A DNA stretch of 64,000 bases from Oceanidesulfovibrio marinus. Lineage in GTDB: Bacteria > Desulfobacterota > Desulfovibrionia > Desulfovibrionales > Desulfovibrionaceae. A program made the translations under genes and the position numbers. Each line of letters begins with the position of its first letter. The stretch's first letter is position 1. Positions 14,656 through 49,810 of this stretch are shown in pieces. The stretch is from the NCBI RefSeq assembly GCF_013085545.1, contig NZ_CP039543.1, forward strand, positions 2,883,322 through 2,947,321. Direction: 5' to 3'. Below the pieces are notes generated by a model. That model ran no database searches. It worked only from the letters and a program-made list of their open reading frames with translations, and was not told the DNA's origin.

Positions 14656-16110
14656 ATGTCGCTTTTGGAACGCGTTTTGTCGCGAAACGCCTGCCTTGTG
14701 GGCAGTGAATGGATCGCGGCTGATTCTGGAGATACCATCAAGGTGGACAACCCGGCCACCGGGGAGATTATCGGCACGGTGCCCAAATGCGGCAAGGCCG
14801 AGACCGCCCGCGCCATCGAGGCCGCCGCCGCTGCCTTTGCCGGCTGGCGCGCCCGCACGGCCATCCAGCGCGCCGACGTCATCCTGCGCTGGCGCGACCT
14901 GATCATGGAGCACCAGGACGAGCTGGCCGAGCTGATGACCCTGGAGCAGGGCAAGCCCCTGCCCGAGGCAAGCGGTGAGATCGCCTACGGCGCCGGCTAT
15001 CTGCGCTGGTTCGCCGAGGAAGCCCGCCGGGTCTACGGCGAGATCGTCCCGCCGCCCGTGCCCGGCAGGACCCTGCTCGTGACCAAGGCCCCGGTTGGCG
15101 TGGTGGGCATCATCACCCCCTGGAACTTCCCCATGGCCATGATCGCCCGCAAGATCGGCCCGGCCCTGGCCGTTGGCTGCCCCTCGGTCATCAAGCCGGC
15201 CAGCCAGACGCCCTTCTCCGCTCTGGCCATGGCCGAGCTGGCCCTGGAAGCCGGCGTGCCCGAGGGCATCATCAACGTGGTCACCGGCGACGCCCGGGCC
15301 ATCGGCGGCGAGCTCACCGCCAACCCCACCGTGCGCAAGGTCAGCTTCACCGGCTCCACCAGCGTGGGCAAGGTCCTGCTGGAGCAGTGTGCCGGCACCG
15401 TGAAGAAGGTCTCCATGGAGCTGGGCGGCAACGCGCCCTTCCTGATCTTCGACGACGCCAACCTGGACCGCGCCGTGGCCGGCGCCGTGGCCAGCAAGTA
15501 CCGCAACAGCGGCCAGACCTGCGTGTGCACCAACCGCTTCTACGTGCAGGACGGCGTGTACGACGAGTTCGTGGAGAAGTTCAGCAAGGCCGTGGCCGAG
15601 CTCAAGGTGGGCAACGGCATGGACGAAGGCGTGACCCAGGGCCCGCTCATCGACGGCAAGGCCGTGGCCCACGTGGAGTCCCAGATCGGCGACGCCTTGA
15701 GCAAGGGCGGCCGCGTCGTGGTCGGCGGCAAGCGCCACGAGCTGGGCGGCAACTTCTTCGAGCCCACCGTGCTGGCCGACGCCACGCGGGAGATGTGCTT
15801 TGCCAAGGACGAGACCTTTGGCCCGCTGGCCCCGGTCTTCCGCTTTACCGAGGAAGAAGAGGCCGTGGCCCAGGCCAACGACACCAACTACGGCTTGGCC
15901 GCCTACCTCTACACCCGCAGCATCGGCCGCGCCTTCCGCGTCTCCGAGACCCTGGAGTACGGCCTTGTGGGCGTCAACGAGGGCCTGCTCTCCAGTTGCG
16001 AGGCGCCCTTCGGCGGCGTCAAGGAAAGCGGACTGGGCCGCGAAGGCTCCAGCCACGGCATCGACGACTACGTGGAGCTCAAGTACACCTGCATGAGCCT
16101 GGAGGACTAG
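14656..16110 (+). CDS. gabD: NAD(P)-dependent succinate-semialdehyde dehydrogenase
   Basis: 484 residues, the standard GabD length. The catalytic Glu is in MELGGNAPFLIF near 255 and the nucleophilic Cys in NSGQTCVCTNRF near 289; GQTCVCTNR is characteristic of the GabD subgroup. It oxidises the succinate semialdehyde from GabT to succinate. Preceded by AGGAG 9 bases before the ATG. It ends the gabT-liv-gabD cluster at a strong terminator. Confidence 0.93.
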   Translation: MSLLERVLSRNACLVGSEWIAADSGDTIKVDNPATGEIIGTVPKCGKAETARAIEAAAAAFAGWRARTAIQRADVILRWRDLIMEHQDELAELMTLEQGKPLPEASGEIAYGAGYLRWFAEEARRVYGEIVPPPVPGRTLLVTKAPVGVVGIITPWNFPMAMIARKIGPALAVGCPSVIKPASQTPFSALAMAELALEAGVPEGIINVVTGDARAIGGELTANPTVRKVSFTGSTSVGKVLLEQCAGTVKKVSMELGGNAPFLIFDDANLDRAVAGAVASKYRNSGQTCVCTNRFYVQDGVYDEFVEKFSKAVAELKVGNGMDEGVTQGPLIDGKAVAHVESQIGDALSKGGRVVVGGKRHELGGNFFEPTVLADATREMCFAKDETFGPLAPVFRFTEEEEAVAQANDTNYGLAAYLYTRSIGRAFRVSETLEYGLVGVNEGLLSSCEAPFGGVKESGLGREGSSHGIDDYVELKYTCMSLED

Positions 16111-38871: not shown

Positions 38872-39978
38872 TCAGCTGTCCGAGGAGCCGGCTCTATAGG
38901 CCGCTACGAATTTATTCGCCTGCGTTATGGCCTCTTCAACACTCTCGATCGTCACCGGGATGGACATATTGTGGATGCGGCTTTTCGGGCGGAGCACAAA
39001 CGTTGCCGTCTTGCGAAGCTGTTCTGCATCCGGTTCGGGTATGCCCAGGTCTTTCAGTGATGCCGGCAGACCCACCGCGGTGTAGAAGTCCAGCATATCC
39101 TTCATGAACGCGTCGTCTCGTTTTTCCAGCATGAACTGGGCGATCAGCCCCAACGCGACCTCCTCGCCGTGCAACACGCCCTTGGCTCCCGGCAAATCCG
39201 CCAGGGCCATGCCGATGGCGTGCGCGGCGGCCACACCGCAGCCTTCAAAGCCAAGCCCGCTCAAAAGCGTGTTGGCCTCGACGACCTTCTCGACAGCCTC
39301 GCTGACGCGCTGCTCCCGCACGTGGCGAACCGCCTCCGGAGCATATTTGCGTACGATCGTATAGCAGGCGTCGGCAAGACAGATGGCGGCCTCGGTCGGT
39401 CTGGCGCCGAAGAAGTTATCGCAACCGGAAGCGACACACTGATCTGCCTCGAACTTCGTGACCAGCGCATCCGCAATGCCTGCTATGAAAAACCGGACAG
39501 GCGCGCGGGCTACAATCCCTGTATCGACCAGCACCGCATCCGGATTGTTTTCCAGAAACCGCGGTCCGATGAAGGTGCCGTCGTCGTTGTAGGTGATGGC
39601 AAGCCTGCCGGTGGCGGAGTCGTTGGACGCGATTGTCGGCACGATGATCACGTGGATGCCGGTTTCGATCTTCACGGCCTTGGCGGTATCGATGGCCTTG
39701 CCGCCGCCAAAGCCGAGAACGCAGTCGCAGCCTTCGTCCCGGGCTTTTTGTGACGCGCTTTCGATAGCAGCAGGAGAGCATTCGCCGCCAAAGTCCACAA
39801 ACAGCGGCGTAATGTCCTCTCGCTTCAAGGCCTGAACAAGCGCCTCTTCATAAAGACTCCTGACAAACGCATCGGCGACAACCAGGGGCTTTTTACCGAA
39901 CGGCCGGACATACTCTCCAATGTTATCAAGTAGTCCGTCCCCCAGCTTGTACACCAGCGGAAAACCCATCGCTTTCAT
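38872..39978 (-). CDS. GldA-like metal-dependent alcohol dehydrogenase
   Basis: 368 residues from the ATG at 39978 with GGAGG upstream; the longer frame lacks one. The NAD-binding segment VLGFGGGKAIDTAKA lies near residue 85, then VPTIASNDSATGRLAI near 112. Metal ligands appear in the expected places: Asp in AGIADALVTKFEA, His in AAAHAIGM and His in GVLHGEEVALGL. It belongs to the glycerol-dehydrogenase branch of the iron-type alcohol dehydrogenases. Last gene of the aldolase-kinase-TRAP operon. In the sulfo-sugar hypothesis it would reduce sulfolactaldehyde to dihydroxypropanesulfonate; otherwise it may oxidise a polyol. Confidence 0.88.
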   Translation of the reverse strand: MKAMGFPLVYKLGDGLLDNIGEYVRPFGKKPLVVADAFVRSLYEEALVQALKREDITPLFVDFGGECSPAAIESASQKARDEGCDCVLGFGGGKAIDTAKAVKIETGIHVIIVPTIASNDSATGRLAITYNDDGTFIGPRFLENNPDAVLVDTGIVARAPVRFFIAGIADALVTKFEADQCVASGCDNFFGARPTEAAICLADACYTIVRKYAPEAVRHVREQRVSEAVEKVVEANTLLSGLGFEGCGVAAAHAIGMALADLPGAKGVLHGEEVALGLIAQFMLEKRDDAFMKDMLDFYTAVGLPASLKDLGIPEPDAEQLRKTATFVLRPKSRIHNMSIPVTIESVEEAITQANKFVAAYRAGSSDS

Positions 39979-40068: not shown

Positions 40069-41100
40069 TCACTGATTGTTTACTTTCGCTTGTGCTTCTT
40101 CCACGGCGCTGAGCATGATCTTCAACCATTTGTCGCCATACTTTTCGACGTACCAGTCCTCCATATGCTGCCTGGCGCCGAGGAACGTCTCCCGGTCCGC
40201 GGCCGTGGGCTCGTAGATCTCGCCGCCCGCGGCGATAAAGTCCTCGTTGGCGCTGGCTTCCGTCTCTGCATTGAACTTGGTCTGCTCTGCGGCGGCTGCG
40301 GTGAACCCGTCCAGCACGACCTTCTGCAGGTTCTCGGGCAGGCTCTTCAGCCAGCTGTCGCTGACAAAGTAGTAGCCAAAGAGGAAGGTGTGGCGATCCA
40401 GGATCAGGTGCTTGATGCTCTCGTAAAACTTGTTGGACATGACGTCCGGCGTGCCGTTCTTGGTGCCGTCGACAACGCCGGTGGCCAGCGCCGTATACAG
40501 CTCGCCCCAGGCGACAGGCGTTGCCGAGGCGCCGAGGCTCTTGACGAACTCCTGCTGCAACGAAGAGCTGATGGTCCTGATCTTCAGTCCTTTCAGATCG
40601 TCAGCCGTATGGATTGCCTTGTCCGTGGTGAAGAATGAACGCCAGCGGCCGCCGTCGCTGACTGCGGTCAGCCTGACATTGGGCAGCTGTTCAAGGATCG
40701 CATCGCGCATCTTGTCGGTGAAGGACCCTGCCATGAATGCGTAGGCCACCTCGTCATTGGGCAGGACATACTGCAGATCCACAACACTCAGCTCCGGGAT
40801 GAACGGAGTCACGCCGCCGATGGAAACGTGAGCCGATTCCAGAACACCGGCGTTCACCTGCTCCATTACCTCTTGATAATTGCCGAGCTGGTTGCCGGGA
40901 AAGATCTGAACCTCGATCGCGCCATCCGACTTTTCCTCGATGTACTTTTTGAGGGAGGTCGACCCGACGTAATCGTCGTTGTTCATTGTGGCCGGACCCG
41001 CATGGGCAATCTTCAGGGTGAAGTCCGCCGCAGCCGCCGGGTTGGCCATCAGCCCGACCATAACCACAAACGCGACGATACACATGGTGAGCTTCATCAT
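40069..41100 (-). CDS. TRAP substrate-binding protein (DctP family) of the aldolase operon
   Basis: 343 residues from the ATG at 41100, with AAGGAG five bases upstream. A Sec signal peptide ends PAAAA, before DFTLKIAHAGP. The ligand arginine is present in DLKGLKIRTISS near residue 165, followed by ATPVAWGELYTALATGVVDG, as in DctP proteins that bind acidic ligands. This differs from the first TRAP binding protein at 4.5 kb, which lacks that Arg. A carboxylate or sulfonate sugar is therefore a plausible ligand. Confidence 0.9.
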   Translation of the reverse strand: MMKLTMCIVAFVVMVGLMANPAAAADFTLKIAHAGPATMNNDDYVGSTSLKKYIEEKSDGAIEVQIFPGNQLGNYQEVMEQVNAGVLESAHVSIGGVTPFIPELSVVDLQYVLPNDEVAYAFMAGSFTDKMRDAILEQLPNVRLTAVSDGGRWRSFFTTDKAIHTADDLKGLKIRTISSSLQQEFVKSLGASATPVAWGELYTALATGVVDGTKNGTPDVMSNKFYESIKHLILDRHTFLFGYYFVSDSWLKSLPENLQKVVLDGFTAAAAEQTKFNAETEASANEDFIAAGGEIYEPTAADRETFLGARQHMEDWYVEKYGDKWLKIMLSAVEEAQAKVNNQ

Positions 41101-41126: not shown

Positions 41127-42410
41127 TCATACAGGAAATCCCAACAATCTTGGCAGAGTAAGCGATATCACCGGGCAGAACGTTATCAGAATCAGAACGA
41201 GGCCCTGGATTAGGTAGAAAGGCAGCATCTCGCGAACGATTGTCTCGACCTTGACGCCCGACACGGCGGAAGAGGCGAACAGCGCCAAACCAAACGGCGG
41301 TGTCGCCAACCCCATGGTCAGGTTGAGGCACATGATCACGGCGAAATGGACCGGGTTGATGCCCAGACCCAGCATGGTCGGTCCCAGGATCGGCCCCAGG
41401 ATCAAAATCGCTGGTCCCGCATCGAGAAACATGCCTGTAATCAGCAACAGCACATTGGCGACAATCAGGAACACGGCCGCATTGTCGGTCAGGCCGATCA
41501 CAAGCCGCGCAAGCGATTGTGGCACGCCTGCAATATTCAGCACCCAGCCGAACAGCGAAGCCGAGCCGATCATCAGCAGGATGATCGCTGAGGAACCTGC
41601 AGACCGGCGCAATATCTTTGCCAAATCGCCAACCTTCAGCGATCGAATCGCAAGGCTCAGGATGAGCGCGTAGACCACCGCGACCGCAGCAGCCTCGGTG
41701 GGGGAAACAATGCCCAGCAGGATGCCGCCCAGAATGATGACCGGGGTAAGGAGCGGAAAAAAGCCCTCGAACGACGCATGGGCGACTTCCCTTGCCGTGG
41801 CCCTGCTCTCCTGCTTCGGCAGATTATGCTTCCGGGCGATGAAGGCCGTCATGATCATTAGCCCCACACCCATCAACAGGCCTGGTATGAAACCGGCGGC
41901 GAACAGCGCTCCGACCGACACGTTCATGATGTAGGCGTAGACGATCATGATGATGCTTGGCGGTATGACCGGACCAATGATCGATGAAGCCGCAGTCACC
42001 GCCGTGGCAAAGGAACGCTTGTAGCCGTCTTGCTCCATGGCCGGGATAAGCATCGATCCCAGCGCCGAGACATCCGCGACGGCAGAGCCGCTCAGGCCCG
42101 CGAACAGGATCGAGCTGAGGATATTGACGTGCGCGAGTCCCCCGCGGCAGTGGCCGATCAATACCTGCGCCAGCCTGACAAGGCGATGGGTAATACTCCC
42201 GGCGTTCATGATCTCACCCGCCAGGATGAAAAGCGGGACCGCCACAAGAGGGAACTGGTTGATTCCTGCAAACATGCGCTGCAAGCTGATCTGAAGCAAA
42301 GCAGCATTGCCTTGCAGGGAGAACCCCAGCAAGGGACCGAACGCCAGTGCAAAGACGATCGGCACGCCTATCAGTGCGGTGACGATGGTGAAAATAATGA
42401 AGAGGGGCAT
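41127..42410 (-). CDS. TRAP transporter large permease (DctM family)
   Basis: 427 residues and about 12 helices, with the family motif SSIIGPVIPPSIIMIVYAY near 147 and the first-helix segment TALIGVPIVFALAFGP. It lies 19 bases after the small permease and is followed by the binding-protein gene 26 bases later; the order Q-M-P is common. It is the ion-coupled translocation channel for the sugar-type substrate. Confidence 0.92.
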   Translation of the reverse strand: MPLFIIFTIVTALIGVPIVFALAFGPLLGFSLQGNAALLQISLQRMFAGINQFPLVAVPLFILAGEIMNAGSITHRLVRLAQVLIGHCRGGLAHVNILSSILFAGLSGSAVADVSALGSMLIPAMEQDGYKRSFATAVTAASSIIGPVIPPSIIMIVYAYIMNVSVGALFAAGFIPGLLMGVGLMIMTAFIARKHNLPKQESRATAREVAHASFEGFFPLLTPVIILGGILLGIVSPTEAAAVAVVYALILSLAIRSLKVGDLAKILRRSAGSSAIILLMIGSASLFGWVLNIAGVPQSLARLVIGLTDNAAVFLIVANVLLLITGMFLDAGPAILILGPILGPTMLGLGINPVHFAVIMCLNLTMGLATPPFGLALFASSAVSGVKVETIVREMLPFYLIQGLVLILITFCPVISLTLPRLLGFPV

Positions 42411-42429: not shown

Positions 42430-42921
42430 TCATTCGGACTGTACGAACGGGCTTAAGATGTTCTCGATGCACAGCGGCACGATCAAGGCGAACCCGACAG
42501 GCAGCGCAAGATAGGAGTAGCCGTGGGAAAGCCAGTCCATGGACGGGATGATTCTGGCCATCCCCTGTTTGACGAACGGAACGCCGTATACGATTACCGT
42601 AATCGCCACGAAGAGAACCGCAGCATTGGCAACCGCGCACAGCAATTTCGAGCATGCCTTGGGAAGCCTGTCAGAGGCGAGGTTGGTAGCGATGTGACCG
42701 CCCCGCATGCCCACCGGCGCCCCCAGGAACGACATCCAGACAAGACAGACAAGCGTGAAGTCCTCGCTCCACGGAATGGGGTTGTTCAGGCAGTAACGCC
42801 AGACGACGGAACAGAACAGCAACCCCGCCAGCACCCCCAGCAGAACGGTGAGGATGGCTTCGCACATCTTGATTATCAGGGTATTGCACAGCACAAGGCC
42901 GCTGAACGCACGCTTGAGCAT
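42430..42921 (-). CDS. TRAP transporter small permease (DctQ family)
   Basis: 163 residues from the ATG at 42921 (AGGGA ribosome site), with four helices and the DctQ core YCLNNPIPWSEDFTLVCLVW near 48-67 followed by GAPVGMRGGHIATN. It precedes dctM by 19 bases and follows the kinase gene by 75 bases. Confidence 0.9.
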   Translation of the reverse strand: MLKRAFSGLVLCNTLIIKMCEAILTVLLGVLAGLLFCSVVWRYCLNNPIPWSEDFTLVCLVWMSFLGAPVGMRGGHIATNLASDRLPKACSKLLCAVANAAVLFVAITVIVYGVPFVKQGMARIIPSMDWLSHGYSYLALPVGFALIVPLCIENILSPFVQSE

Positions 42922-42996
42922 GTTCCCTTCCCTCACTTCACTACTTCAGTTGGTCGACACATGGTTCTCGCTCCTGACAACGAAACGGCCAACGAA

Positions 42997-43890
42997 CTAT
43001 ACGTGGCCGAGAAATACATCGACCTGCTCCCGGGTCGGGATACCCGTTGAACCCCCGGGGACAGTGCATTTCAACGCGGCGGCGGCGCTGGAAAAACGGA
43101 GCGCCTGCTCTATCCCCATGCCTTCCGCCAGCCCCACGGCAAAGGCGCCATGAAAGGTGTCGCCTGCGCCAAGCGTGTCTACGCAATCAATTTCGAACTT
43201 GGGCATGTGCTTGAAGATGTCGCCGTCCATCCAGCAGCACCCTTTCTCGCCTGCTGTGATGGCCACCCATCTGCCCGTTGCCTTGGCTGTTGCGCGAAGG
43301 TTTGCTTCCAGGTCTTTCTGTCCACCTACCAGTTCCGCGCCGCCTTCGGAAAAGACGATGTAGTCGGCCAGGGAAACCAGGGCTGTTGTGTCATACGGGG
43401 CCATATCCCCATCTATGACTGTGGTGATGCCCTTTTTCCTGGCGTACTCCAGCGCCGCACGTCCGCCTTCGGGCCAACGCACGTCGGCAAGAACCACGTC
43501 GGCTTGTCCAATGACGTCCCAGGGCAGCCAGGATGCATCCGGAGCGATATCCGCGTCACTGAAGTTGACCACCTGCCGTTCACCGTGGCTGTCCACAACA
43601 ACGGAAGAAACCTGCGTGGAAAAGCCGTCCACAAGCCGAACGCATGAGGCGTTCACCCCGCGTTCAGTCAACGAGTCCACCATGAACCGGCCACCGGCGT
43701 CATTTCCAAGGCGGCCGATGAACCATGCCTCGTGCCCCATCGCCGCAACGGCAAGGGCGGCGACAGCGGCAGGGCCTCCGGCGGCCGCGGCATAGTGCGT
43801 GGCGAAGAACTTGCCCCCACCGGACGGGAGCTCGTTGACCCGAAACATGTAGTCCATACAGCCGAGGCCGACGCAGACAATCCTGGCCAT
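42997..43890 (-). CDS. PfkB-family sugar kinase resembling sulfofructose kinase YihV
   Basis: 297 residues. PfkB motifs are intact: AGGPAAVAALAVAAMG near 37-52 and the catalytic TLGAGDTFHGA near 245. Compared from memory with E. coli YihV, the pattern matches without gaps through residue 140. The three side chains reported to hold the sulfonate of sulfofructose in YihV are all present at the same numbers: Lys27 (GGGKFF), Asn109 (VVNFS) and Arg138 (LADVRW). The shared LADVRW, DGD.AP.D and FSE..GAELVGG-type blocks support the grouping. I infer phosphorylation of a sulfonated (or similarly charged) ketohexose. It sits between the aldolase and TRAP genes. Confidence 0.85.
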   Translation of the reverse strand: MARIVCVGLGCMDYMFRVNELPSGGGKFFATHYAAAAGGPAAVAALAVAAMGHEAWFIGRLGNDAGGRFMVDSLTERGVNASCVRLVDGFSTQVSSVVVDSHGERQVVNFSDADIAPDASWLPWDVIGQADVVLADVRWPEGGRAALEYARKKGITTVIDGDMAPYDTTALVSLADYIVFSEGGAELVGGQKDLEANLRATAKATGRWVAITAGEKGCCWMDGDIFKHMPKFEIDCVDTLGAGDTFHGAFAVGLAEGMGIEQALRFSSAAAALKCTVPGGSTGIPTREQVDVFLGHV

Positions 43891-43903: not shown

Positions 43904-44746
43904 CTATGCTGCCTTGTTTACCGAATTGAACAACACCATCTTCTTTGACACCGCGGAAGCTATGGCGGCGATACCGCATTCGAAATCTTGCAGCAGCCCG
44001 CTGTCAGGGGATGCGTTGAGCTGAGCGGTGAGGGCGTTTTTGCAAGCGACCTGGAGACCCGTGTTCACGTTGATCTTTCGAATCCCATTGGCGACAGCAT
44101 CTTTGACGTGCTCATCAAGGACTCCGGAGGCGCCGTGCAAGACGAGCGGAGCTTTGATCTTTTGGTGCAGTGCTCGCAGCAGATCCTGATCCAGGGAGGC
44201 GCCGGCTGTTTTCATGCCGTGGATAGACCCCAGGGAAACCGCGACGAGATCCACCCCGGTGCGCTCTACGAACTCAACGGCCATGTCCGGATCAGTCATG
44301 TCTTTTTCGGAAACCGGATCCGTGCCGTGGGGAACGATGCCCACCTCGCCCTCCGCTGTGGCGCCGTGGTCGTGAGCCATAGCGACCACTTCTTTTGTCT
44401 TGGCGACATTTTCCTCGAAAGGAAGCGCGGAACCATCGAACATGACGGAGGTGACGCCCAGCTCCAACGCCCGGCGCACCAGCTCCACGTCCCTGGAGTG
44501 GTCGATATGGATTGCGACCGGCACATCCGATTCTTCAGCAACGGCCCGGCACGCGGCCACGAGGGGCTTGAGCCCTATGTATTTGATAGAAAGCATGCCC
44601 ACGGCAAGAATGGCGGGCGAACGATTTTCGCAAGCGGCTGTCACCACCCCTCTGGCAAACTCAAGGTTGTGGACGTTGAAATGGCCGACAGCCCAATTGT
44701 CGTCATACCTCAAACCCAACTCATTCACATTAACAAGGTTCAACAC
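43904..44746 (-). CDS. Class II (zinc) ketose-bisphosphate aldolase
   Basis: 280 residues, the GatY/KbaY/FbaA class II family that splits ketose 1,6-bisphosphates or 1-phosphates into DHAP and an aldehyde. The catalytic Asp and metal His are in HIDHS near 81. Further metal ligands are Glu in AEGEVGIVPHG near 134, His in SLGSIHGMK near 177 and His in LVLHGASGV near 207; the KINVNTGLQ phosphate loop is near 227. E. coli sulfoglycolysis uses a class I aldolase (YihT), so this would be an unrelated replacement if the pathway is a sulfo-sugar route. First gene of the operon. Confidence 0.9.
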   Translation of the reverse strand: MLNLVNVNELGLRYDDNWAVGHFNVHNLEFARGVVTAACENRSPAILAVGMLSIKYIGLKPLVAACRAVAEESDVPVAIHIDHSRDVELVRRALELGVTSVMFDGSALPFEENVAKTKEVVAMAHDHGATAEGEVGIVPHGTDPVSEKDMTDPDMAVEFVERTGVDLVAVSLGSIHGMKTAGASLDQDLLRALHQKIKAPLVLHGASGVLDEHVKDAVANGIRKINVNTGLQVACKNALTAQLNASPDSGLLQDFECGIAAIASAVSKKMVLFNSVNKAA

Positions 44747-44817
44747 AATTCTCCAAATAATTAATGTGTTAGCATAAGCACATCAGGACCCGCTTGGTCA
44801 TTCTTGACTTTATGAAA

Positions 44818-44846
44818 ATAGTGTAAAATATCTATCAAAACGTCAA
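44818..44846 (-). promoter_or_regulatory. Sigma-70 promoter of the aldolase-kinase-TRAP operon
   Basis: On the minus strand TTGACG (44841-44846), a 17-base spacer and CACTAT (44818-44823) form a good sigma-70 promoter. The leader of about 65 bases contains an inverted repeat ATGTG-N10-CACAT (44764-44783), a candidate operator for the divergent DeoR-type regulator. Confidence 0.65.
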
Positions 44847-45037
44847 GTTTTTTTCAAATTGCGGCCACCATTTTGTCACTTTGATACAATTTCTAGGTAA
44901 TTATGGAAAAAAAATTACAGCACCTGACAGGGTTGCCGTCAGCCGAAAAAGTCGGCCATATGGACGCAAATGCTGTCGATAAAGACTTTCAGGATGCAGT
45001 TCCGTTCATCGGCAGCGTAAACACCTTAAACACAATC

Positions 45038-45066
45038 TTGCAAAGTGTAACACGCCCTACTATGTT
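45038..45066 (+). promoter_or_regulatory. Sigma-70 promoter of the DeoR-type regulator
   Basis: TTGCAA (45038-45043), a 17-base spacer and TATGTT (45061-45066) precede the regulator gene by about 100 bases. The intergenic region 44747-45165 is AT-rich and otherwise empty. Confidence 0.5.
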
Positions 45067-45165
45067 ATCGATTCATTGAATATCTGGACACGCGAACGGA
45101 ATTGATGAACAGCAAACACATTTCGCACATGAATACTTAATCATTTTATGAAGGAATGCGGTAGC

Positions 45166-45945
45166 ATGAAGGTACAGAGCAGGCGCGAGCTCATATCCAA
45201 GCTGGTCAATGAACAGGGTTTTGCATCCTTGGAGTTTCTGGCCGAAAAGTGTGGGGTGTCAACCCAGACTATCCGGCGGGATCTGCAAGCGTTGTGCGAT
45301 GACAATATGATTACACGCCACCATGGCGGCGCAAGTCCAAACTCTTCTCTGCTCAACACCAGCTATGACGTGCGACGTATCTCTCTGCTGCCGGAGAAGC
45401 GGGAGCTCGCAGCAGAAGCCGTCCGCCAAATTGCGCCAAACCGCATGCTCTTTCTCTCCGCGGGTTCGACAATGGAGGTGGTTGCCCAAGAGCTCAAGAA
45501 GCTCTCTTCCATCTGCGTCCTGACCAACAACTTGCATGCCGCCATGCACCTGTACCGGGAAGAGAACATCGACTTGTTCATGTCCTGCGGACAGGTCCGC
45601 AAGAGCAATGGCGGCATTGTCGGCACCAATTCCATCGATTTTGTGTCCAACTTCCGCGTCGACTATATGATCATGGGTATCGGAGCAATCTCACCGGACG
45701 GTTTATTGCTTGAGTACGACTACAATGAAGGCTTGCTCATGCGACGTATGATGCAGAACGCCAACAAAGTAATCCTCGTTACGGACTCGACAAAATACGA
45801 GCGCAATGCAACGGTCAAGGTCGCCCATCTCAGTGACGTGGACATCCTGGTCACGGACCAGGAACCTCCTGTCGCCATTGCCGATATCTGTAGCTCGAAC
45901 AATGTCCGCGTCGTCATCCCGCATGGCATGCACGAGGACAAATAG
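45166..45945 (+). CDS. DeoR-family repressor (GlpR/YihW-like)
   Basis: 259 residues from the ATG at 45166, which has AAGGAA upstream; the earlier ATG at 45148 has none. The N-terminal winged HTH includes VSTQTIRRDLQAL and ITRHHGGAS. The sensor domain has the sugar-phosphate pattern AGSTMEVVAQEL, LTNNLHAAMHLY and LLLEYDYNEG. GlpR, and YihW of the E. coli sulfoquinovose cluster, belong to the same subfamily and respond to pathway phosphates. It is divergent from the aldolase operon, which it probably represses until the substrate is imported. Confidence 0.9.
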   Translation: MKVQSRRELISKLVNEQGFASLEFLAEKCGVSTQTIRRDLQALCDDNMITRHHGGASPNSSLLNTSYDVRRISLLPEKRELAAEAVRQIAPNRMLFLSAGSTMEVVAQELKKLSSICVLTNNLHAAMHLYREENIDLFMSCGQVRKSNGGIVGTNSIDFVSNFRVDYMIMGIGAISPDGLLLEYDYNEGLLMRRMMQNANKVILVTDSTKYERNATVKVAHLSDVDILVTDQEPPVAIADICSSNNVRVVIPHGMHEDK

Positions 45946-48275: not shown

Positions 48276-48875
48276 CTATTCCACAATCTTGCCGATACGG
48301 TTCCAGCGGAAGTTGTCCAGGCCGTTGCTTGACCAATAGATCATCCAGGCCTTTCCGACAACGGCGCTTTTGTCCACAAAGCCCCAAAAGCGTGAATCCA
48401 GGGATTCATCGCGGTTGTCGCCCATCACGAAGTACTTGCCTTCGGGCACGGTACGCGGCGCCATGTTGTCGCGCATGGTCTGGAAGTGCGGATCGGTGTG
48501 CTGAACATACGGCTCGTCGAGCTTCTCGCCATTCACGTACACATCCTTGTTGCGAACCTCCACGGTGTCGCCTGGCGCGCCGATAACGCGCTTAATGAAA
48601 TCCTCGCTCGGGTCCTTTGGATACTCGAAGACGATAATATCCCCGCGCTCCGGCTCGGAGAACTCTATAAGCGCGATATGCGTGTAAGGAATCTTGAGGC
48701 TGTAGCTGAAGCGGGGAACAAGAATGTGGTCCCCGATCTGGAGTGTTTCGAGCATCGATCCGGACGGAATGACAAACGACTGGACAATGAAGGCCCGGAT
48801 TATGATCGCGAGAATGAACGCGAGGACAATGGATTCCGTATAGTCTTTGAGTATCTTCCGCCAGCGGGGGGTCAT
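48276..48875 (-). CDS. lepB: Signal peptidase I, copy 1
   Basis: 199 residues. A membrane helix near residues 13-32 is followed by the catalytic Ser in IPSGSMLETLQIGDHILV near 37 and the general-base Lys in IKRVIGAPGDTVEVRN near 92. The GDNRDESLDSRFWGFV box is near 152. It cleaves Sec and Tat signal peptides at the periplasmic face. It is very similar to the next gene upstream, and both keep all catalytic residues. Confidence 0.95.
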   Translation of the reverse strand: MTPRWRKILKDYTESIVLAFILAIIIRAFIVQSFVIPSGSMLETLQIGDHILVPRFSYSLKIPYTHIALIEFSEPERGDIIVFEYPKDPSEDFIKRVIGAPGDTVEVRNKDVYVNGEKLDEPYVQHTDPHFQTMRDNMAPRTVPEGKYFVMGDNRDESLDSRFWGFVDKSAVVGKAWMIYWSSNGLDNFRWNRIGKIVE

Positions 48876-49207: not shown

Positions 49208-49810
49208 TTATCGTACGATGTCGCCGATCCGGTTCCAGCGGATGTTGCTCACGCCCCGCCATGACCAGTAGATGACCCAGGCCTTGCCCTCAATCTTGTG
49301 CCGGTCCACGAATCCCCAGAAGCGCGAGTCGTGCGATTCGTCGCGGTTGTCGCCCATGACGAAGTACTCGTTCTCCGGCACGGTGCGCGGCGCCATGTTG
49401 TCGCGCAAGCTTTCCAGTATTCGCGAGTCCGTGTGCTGTACGTACGGCTCGTCGAGCTTCTTGCCGTTCACGTACACGTCCTTGTTGCGAATCTCCACCG
49501 TGTCGCCGGGCAGACCGATGACGCGCTTGATGAAGTCCTGGCTGGGGTTCACGGGGTACTCGAAGACGATGACGTCCCCGCGCTCGGGCTGGGAGAACTC
49601 CACCACCTCGATGTCCGTGAACGGGACCTTGACGCCGTAAATGAGCTTGGAGACGAGCAGGTGGTCGCCGATCTGCAGGGTTTCGAGCATGGAGCCCGAG
49701 GGGATTTTGAAGGCCTGGACAAAGAAGGCGCGGATGATCATCGCGAGAATAAAGGCGATGACGATGGCTTCGGTATATTCCTTGAGCATCTTTTGCCAGC
49801 GTGGGGTCAT
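49208..49810 (-). CDS. lepB: Signal peptidase I, copy 2
   Basis: 200 residues, with Ser in IPSGSMLETLQIGDHLLV, Lys in IKRVIGLPGDTVEIRN and GDNRDESHDSRFWGFV, matching copy 1 almost throughout. It lies 45 bases downstream of lepA, the classical lepA-lepB arrangement, so this copy is likely the ancestral one. Divergence from copy 1 is mostly in the N-terminal helix and in the loop around residues 55-70. Confidence 0.95.
   Translation of the reverse strand: MTPRWQKMLKEYTEAIVIAFILAMIIRAFFVQAFKIPSGSMLETLQIGDHLLVSKLIYGVKVPFTDIEVVEFSQPERGDVIVFEYPVNPSQDFIKRVIGLPGDTVEIRNKDVYVNGKKLDEPYVQHTDSRILESLRDNMAPRTVPENEYFVMGDNRDESHDSRFWGFVDRHKIEGKAWVIYWSWRGVSNIRWNRIGDIVR

Follow-up and report, generated by a model that had tools for sequence, protein, structure and literature searches.

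The 64,000-nucleotide stretch of the Oceanidesulfovibrio marinus genome analyzed here (the window) carries an operon with which this sulfate/sulfite-reducing bacterium probably takes up a sugar sulfonated at C6 and carries out the first half of its degradation. The candidate substrate class is a sulfonated sugar like that of plant sulfolipids. The order of genes on the minus strand is aldolase, kinase, DctQ, DctM, DctP and GldA, with a spacing of 13 bases between aldolase and kinase and with a divergent regulator:

38872–39978, minus strand: GldA-family metal-dependent alcohol dehydrogenase, likely start at 39978 (family match, tree)
40069–41100, minus strand: TRAP substrate-binding protein DctP, likely start Met at 41100, binding Arg in GLKIRT
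41127–42410, minus strand: TRAP large permease DctM, grouping with the TRAPs of sulfo-EMP clusters (family match, tree)
42430–42936, minus strand: TRAP small permease DctQ (family match)
42997–43890, minus strand: YihV-like PfkB kinase of 297 aa with K27/N109/R138, candidate sulfofructose (sulfoketose) 1-kinase (sequence, alignment, fold)
43904–44746, minus strand: class II (metal-dependent) ketose-phosphate aldolase of 280 aa, candidate sulfofructose-1-phosphate aldolase (sequence, fold)
44747–45147, no strand: intergenic stretch separating the regulator gene from the operon, presumably with the operator/promoter (position alone)
45148–45945, plus strand: divergent DeoR/GlpR-type transcriptional regulator of 265 aa, equally placed in the related genome G032 (family match)

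A preliminary description of the kinase had listed an aldolase, a TRAP binding protein with the conserved Arg and a GlpR-type regulator as its companions, and all of them were found; the aldolase belongs to class II, unlike YihT, the class I aldolase of the sulfo-EMP pathway. A GabD-like gene at 14656–16110 was considered as a member of the system and excluded, as it sits in an unrelated cluster of aminotransferase/amino-acid-transporter type. Elsewhere in the window, 48276–48875 and 49208–49810 form a tandem pair of similar, type I signal peptidase-like genes.

The kinase reading frame was confirmed at 43890–42997 on the minus strand, encoding 297 residues. Its best sequence match in the PDB is E. 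coli YihV (5e-75, 256 bits), compared with 193 bits for 2rbc, about 111 for ribokinases and only 77 for YdjH, to which the kinase is therefore not close. The alignment with YihV spans 294 residues at 42% identity and holds all three residues of the triad in register. A fold search with the AlphaFold model (pLDDT 94.7) returned YihV chains as its eight highest matches (TM 0.89–0.97); the fold matches include 7ag6, titled in the PDB ‘SF kinase YihV ... in complex with sulfofructose’. YihV is thus the closest characterized relative of this PfkB-fold protein both by sequence and by fold.

In the kinase phylogeny, the window protein forms one clade with those of G032 (57%), a member of the same family, and of Desulfofustis (51%), with support of 100/99. 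The proposed kinship with YihV proved weaker than stated: the Desulfobacterota kinases constitute a clade of their own, placed near and outside the gammaproteobacterial YihV clade, and a joint clade of the two is not rejected (AU p = 0.27), the deeper branching being poorly supported. The kinase is rare, being present in 3 of the 348 genomes of the class (E 1e-50), and a sample of 395 genomes across the phylum yielded no additional carrier. Relatives in GTDB contigs were recruited by an alignment scan, a single-protein scan having returned zero matches.

The residues K27, N109 and R138, which we take to be the sulfonate contacts of YihV, occur in the window kinase at YihV’s own residue numbers, so that the preliminary description is borne out by the alignment in both sequence and numbering. 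These contact residues of YihV are said to have been described by Sharma et al. (ACS Cent Sci, 2021). The further claim that ordinary PfkB kinases lack the triad stands for the full set, the three positions being occupied by T/I/E in ribokinase and by gap/T/L in YdjH; it fails for K27 and R138, which are generic to the YihV-like subfamily. Among the 92 YihV-like kinases gathered, K27 was present in 92, R138 in 91 and N109 in 51, and because of these counts N109 is the informative position, while the other two mark the subfamily. Both also occur in kinases with other gene neighborhoods and no sulfo context, and kinases adjoining a DHDPS-type aldolase and an ABC transporter carry K-P-R. In a thinned set, N109 was found at 19 of the 22 loci with strong sulfo markers (YihS, SftI, close YihU or close SuyB in the locus) and at 12 of the 44 loci without them; the three marker-bearing loci that lack it have S, S and A. 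A phylogeny-corrected test of this association comprised just three independent pairs, too few for power. The triad by itself was dropped as proof of function, since K and R occur subfamily-wide.

Variants at this position were observed in two further settings. In Roseomonas-type genomes (L108, L109 and L111), a K-A-R YihV-like kinase lies near SuyA/SuyB homologs, with the SuyB of L108 at about 70%. In another genome of the same family as O. marinus (G017; L035, 4140–10126), two TRAP sets and a class II aldolase (45%) accompany a YihV-like kinase (42%) in which Gly replaces N109; the substrate there may be another anionic ketose.

The case for a sulfosugar function is made mainly by gene context. 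In Desulfofustis (L043), the kinase, the aldolase (66%) and the TRAP genes flank a sulfoquinovose-isomerase-type gene, for which the best NCBIfam model is the SftI model ‘sulfoquinovose isomerase’ (310 bits, below the cut-off of 700). The same contig encodes SuyA, SuyB, a LarA racemase and an Ldh_2 dehydrogenase, and its SuyB is 85% identical to that of O. marinus. The seven-gene order of the window recurs in G032, where genes for a SlaB/GabD-like protein, an aldehyde:ferredoxin oxidoreductase, an ABC transporter, a DhpA-like protein and SuyAB lie no more than about 30 kb from the operon. The SlaB-like protein of G032 is closer to E. coli GabD than to other solved relatives, and for that reason the SLA specificity of this gene is unproven by sequence alone.

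In O. marinus itself, an operon at about 1.58 Mb (L150, 4944–14371) comprises a presumed regulator, a DhpA-like gene, TRAP genes, a SlaB-like gene and SuyAB, the last being 1.3 Mb from the kinase operon. Its SuyB is 73% identical to the Cupriavidus pinatubonensis SuyB encoded beside hpsN/hpsO. In each of the four genomes checked, O. marinus included, a dsrA gene exceeded the family cut-off, so that the O. marinus genome holds genes for the predicted DhpA, SlaB-like, SuyAB and dissimilatory sulfite reductase activities. The neighborhoods in Desulfofustis and G032, this operon with dsrA, and the TRAP grouping described below all support the earlier prediction that the kinase phosphorylates a sulfonated ketose.

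YihS had no match at E 0.01 in the genomes of O. marinus (G000), G017 and G032, in a search without a positive control. No SftI/SqvD-type isomerase was detected in the same three genomes, the Desulfofustis gene being recovered as a control, and no GH31 protein (the sulfoquinovosidase family) was detected in them either, with matches in control genomes. The ketose is consequently without a known source in O. marinus and G032. Isomerase genes were likewise not found in widespread alpha- and betaproteobacterial clusters around K-N-R kinases (L042, L080, L095, L096, L103 and relatives), which combine a LacD-type aldolase, SDR and zinc dehydrogenases and an ABC transporter, often with a GabD-like or TSUP gene; a so far undescribed sulfosugar pathway is possible there.

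In the TRAP trees, DctP and DctM of the operon group with the transporters of YihS/YihU/YihV clusters from Vibrio (L066, L068, L070) and Testudinibacter (L069), as well as with those of SftI-type loci, namely the SftI/YihQ-like cluster of Rhodospirillales (L060) and Desulfofustis L043; this sample is biased, because most TRAPs entered it through kinase loci. The operon transporter separates from the TRAP of the O. marinus DhpA operon (SH-aLRT 99). A class-wide DctP search retrieved only two other fairly close homologs, from G261 (51%) and G011 (40%). YihV-type kinase clusters with TRAP genes were seen in Vibrio, Photobacterium and Testudinibacter (L066, L068, L069, L070, L163); most also contain YihS and YihU, and in L163 only TRAP, class II aldolase and kinase genes were seen. 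In the literature searched, we found no paper combining sulfoquinovose, a TRAP transporter and the term sulfoglycolytic.

Among solved structures, the aldolase comes closest to class II sulfofructose-phosphate aldolases from Yersinia aldovae and Hafnia paralvei. The best PDB sequence matches are 8q57/8q58 (170 bits), with a small margin over FBA, KbaY and YdjI (157–159), and six of the seven highest fold matches of the model (pLDDT 88.5) are SFP aldolases SqiA. R85 (in DHSR), G133 (in EGE, 132–134) and S171 (in AVS) are common to SqiA-type enzymes, while KbaY, FBA and YdjI mostly differ at these positions, YdjI having the Arg; R85 may act as an anion anchor. The aldolase tree places the window protein in its own clade with the homologs of Desulfofustis, G032 and G017, outside the proven SqiA clade. 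Assignment to SqiA as a clade was accordingly rejected, and the functional analogy is retained.

From these data we infer the following route, in which the substrate, the order of reactions and the flow to sulfide within a single cell are all putative. The TRAP transporter would import an anionic sulfosugar or a derivative, and the kinase would phosphorylate its ketose form at C1, most likely 6-deoxy-6-sulfofructose. The class II aldolase would then cleave the phosphorylated sulfoketose to DHAP, which could enter glycolysis, and 3-sulfolactaldehyde. From the latter, the SlaB-like dehydrogenase would form sulfolactate by oxidation, SuyAB would split this into pyruvate and sulfite, and Dsr would reduce the sulfite to sulfide.

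Other substrates have to be weighed against this one. In Pfam and NCBIfam the kinase and the aldolase receive just the general names PfkB and class II aldolase, and no match reaches an equivalog cut-off, as would suit a common sugar operon of fructose/tagatose or ribokinase-like type unrelated to sulfonates; such an operon is highly improbable given a kinase much nearer to YihV than to ribokinases, uptake by TRAP rather than PTS or ABC, and two relatives with sulfonate-gene neighborhoods. Carboxylates, the usual ligands of TRAP binding proteins, suggest a different analogy, in which a sugar acid would be imported and the kinase and aldolase would convert a keto-uronate to DHAP and a semialdehyde acid. 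E. coli YdjH/YdjI are annotated as a kinase/class II aldolase pair for just such a compound (octuluronate), and YdjI likewise has an Arg following its DH motif. The occurrence of K27 and R138 in kinases without sulfo genes and the lack of a detected SQ isomerase in the YihS and SftI searches of O. marinus are also compatible with a carboxylate. Yet the kinase scores far higher with YihV than with YdjH and retains N109, its relatives adjoin SftI-type isomerase, SuyAB, SlaB-like and DhpA-like genes, and the transporter groups with sulfo-EMP TRAPs, so that we consider a carboxylate substrate quite unlikely.

The GldA-family enzyme bears on how a sulfosugar would enter the route. It retains the metal ligands Asp/His/His and forms, with the GldAs of G032 and G261, a clade apart from E. 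coli GldA (100/100), distinguished by an additional Arg right after the Asp of STD/SND on the substrate side. G261 has an orthologous TRAP (DctP 51%, DctM 62%) together with a GldA (45%) in a locus that lacks both kinase and aldolase, which indicates that GldA goes with the transported substrate. (This G261 pair, L180 8141–12347, lies near a second, DhpA-operon-like TRAP, a sigma-54-type regulator and a TSUP-like gene.) GldA may oxidize the sulfosugar in place of an isomerase, reduce sulfolactaldehyde to DHPS, or serve glycerol use. Under the first role, a sub-case of the sulfosugar reading, a sulfonated polyol or reduced sulfosugar would be imported and oxidized by GldA to the sulfoketose. 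Enzymes of this family oxidize vicinal diols to hydroxyketones, GldA is the sole redox enzyme of the operon, no isomerase was found, and the distinct clade, the extra Arg and the pairing in G261 point the same way. Against it, we know of no sulfohexitol that is a substrate in the environment, and the enzyme could instead act on sulfolactaldehyde or glycerol; we hold this role as a tentative and somewhat doubtful proposal. The complete scheme, in which one sulfate/sulfite reducer would take a sulfosugar to H2S through isomerase-free GldA entry from a sulfonated polyol or similar compound, kinase and aldolase, and SlaB, SuyAB and Dsr, appears rather unlikely. A GldA gene together with DhaK/DhaL/DhaM-like genes is also included in the YihQ/S/T/U/V cluster of Gilliamella (L065, 7958–11127), where the set is proposed to serve the use of glycerol freed from sulfoquinovosyl glycerol; that GldA falls with E. 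coli GldA in the ordinary clade, unlike the three discussed above.

Anaerobic conversion of sulfoquinovose to sulfide has been described as an interspecies relay, in which a first species cleaves the sugar and releases DHPS or isethionate for respiration by Desulfovibrio or Bilophila (PMC6278857, PMC12330013, PMC13219744). If our sulfosugar reading is true, the relay would be closed within one cell, a sulfite reducer having its own sulfosugar kinase and aldolase, with sulfolactate desulfonation encoded beside them or elsewhere in its genome. A Desulfobacterota lineage would also be added to sulfoglycolysis, and the question of a missing enzyme, i.e., the substitute for an SQ isomerase, would be raised.

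In comparison with known systems, the lower half of the proposed route resembles the DHPS pathway of Desulfovibrio sp. DF1, whose DHPS-induced genes encode DhpA, SlaB, an aldehyde:ferredoxin oxidoreductase and an organosulfonate-type ABC transporter, with SuyAB (PMC6278857). The same gene types occur in O. marinus and G032; DF1 is described for DHPS only, whereas O. marinus adds a sulfosugar kinase and aldolase, and its DhpA operon has a TRAP instead of an ABC transporter. An identification of DhpA with GldA-type enzymes was rejected, as DhpA of DF1 is a protein of the 3-hydroxyisobutyrate-dehydrogenase family (PMC6278857). Passage from a sulfosugar to sulfite by sulfolactate sulfo-lyase within a single organism has a precedent in the sulfofucose pathway of Paracoccus wurundjeri (PMC12421959), and the route proposed here is alike in this respect. 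In contrast, P. wurundjeri employs Entner–Doudoroff-type steps with no kinase/aldolase pair and ends at sulfite, without Dsr coupling.

In the upper half, E. coli YdjH/YdjI resemble the window in pairing a PfkB kinase with a class II aldolase for an anionic ketose substrate, but YdjH is a distant relative of the window kinase and has other residues at the three triad positions. E. coli YihV of the sulfo-EMP pathway shares the fold, 42% sequence identity, K27/N109/R138 and a nearby DeoR/GlpR-type regulator; the window system differs in the separate Desulfobacterota clade of its kinase, uptake by TRAP, the class II aldolase and a cluster without YihS, YihQ and YihU. The hybrid combination of YihV and SqiA is already known (PMC10991401, PMC12890257), with clusters in Hafnia paralvei and Serratia fonticola (PMC10991401), and among our loci a YihV-type kinase occurs with a class II aldolase in Serratia (L047, L053), Yersinia (L056) and Vibrio (L066, L068, L070). 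These hybrid clusters resemble the window in joining a YihV-type kinase to a class II aldolase, those of Vibrio having a TRAP as well; they keep YihU and an isomerase of SftI type or YihS, and the window aldolase represents a separate class II lineage.
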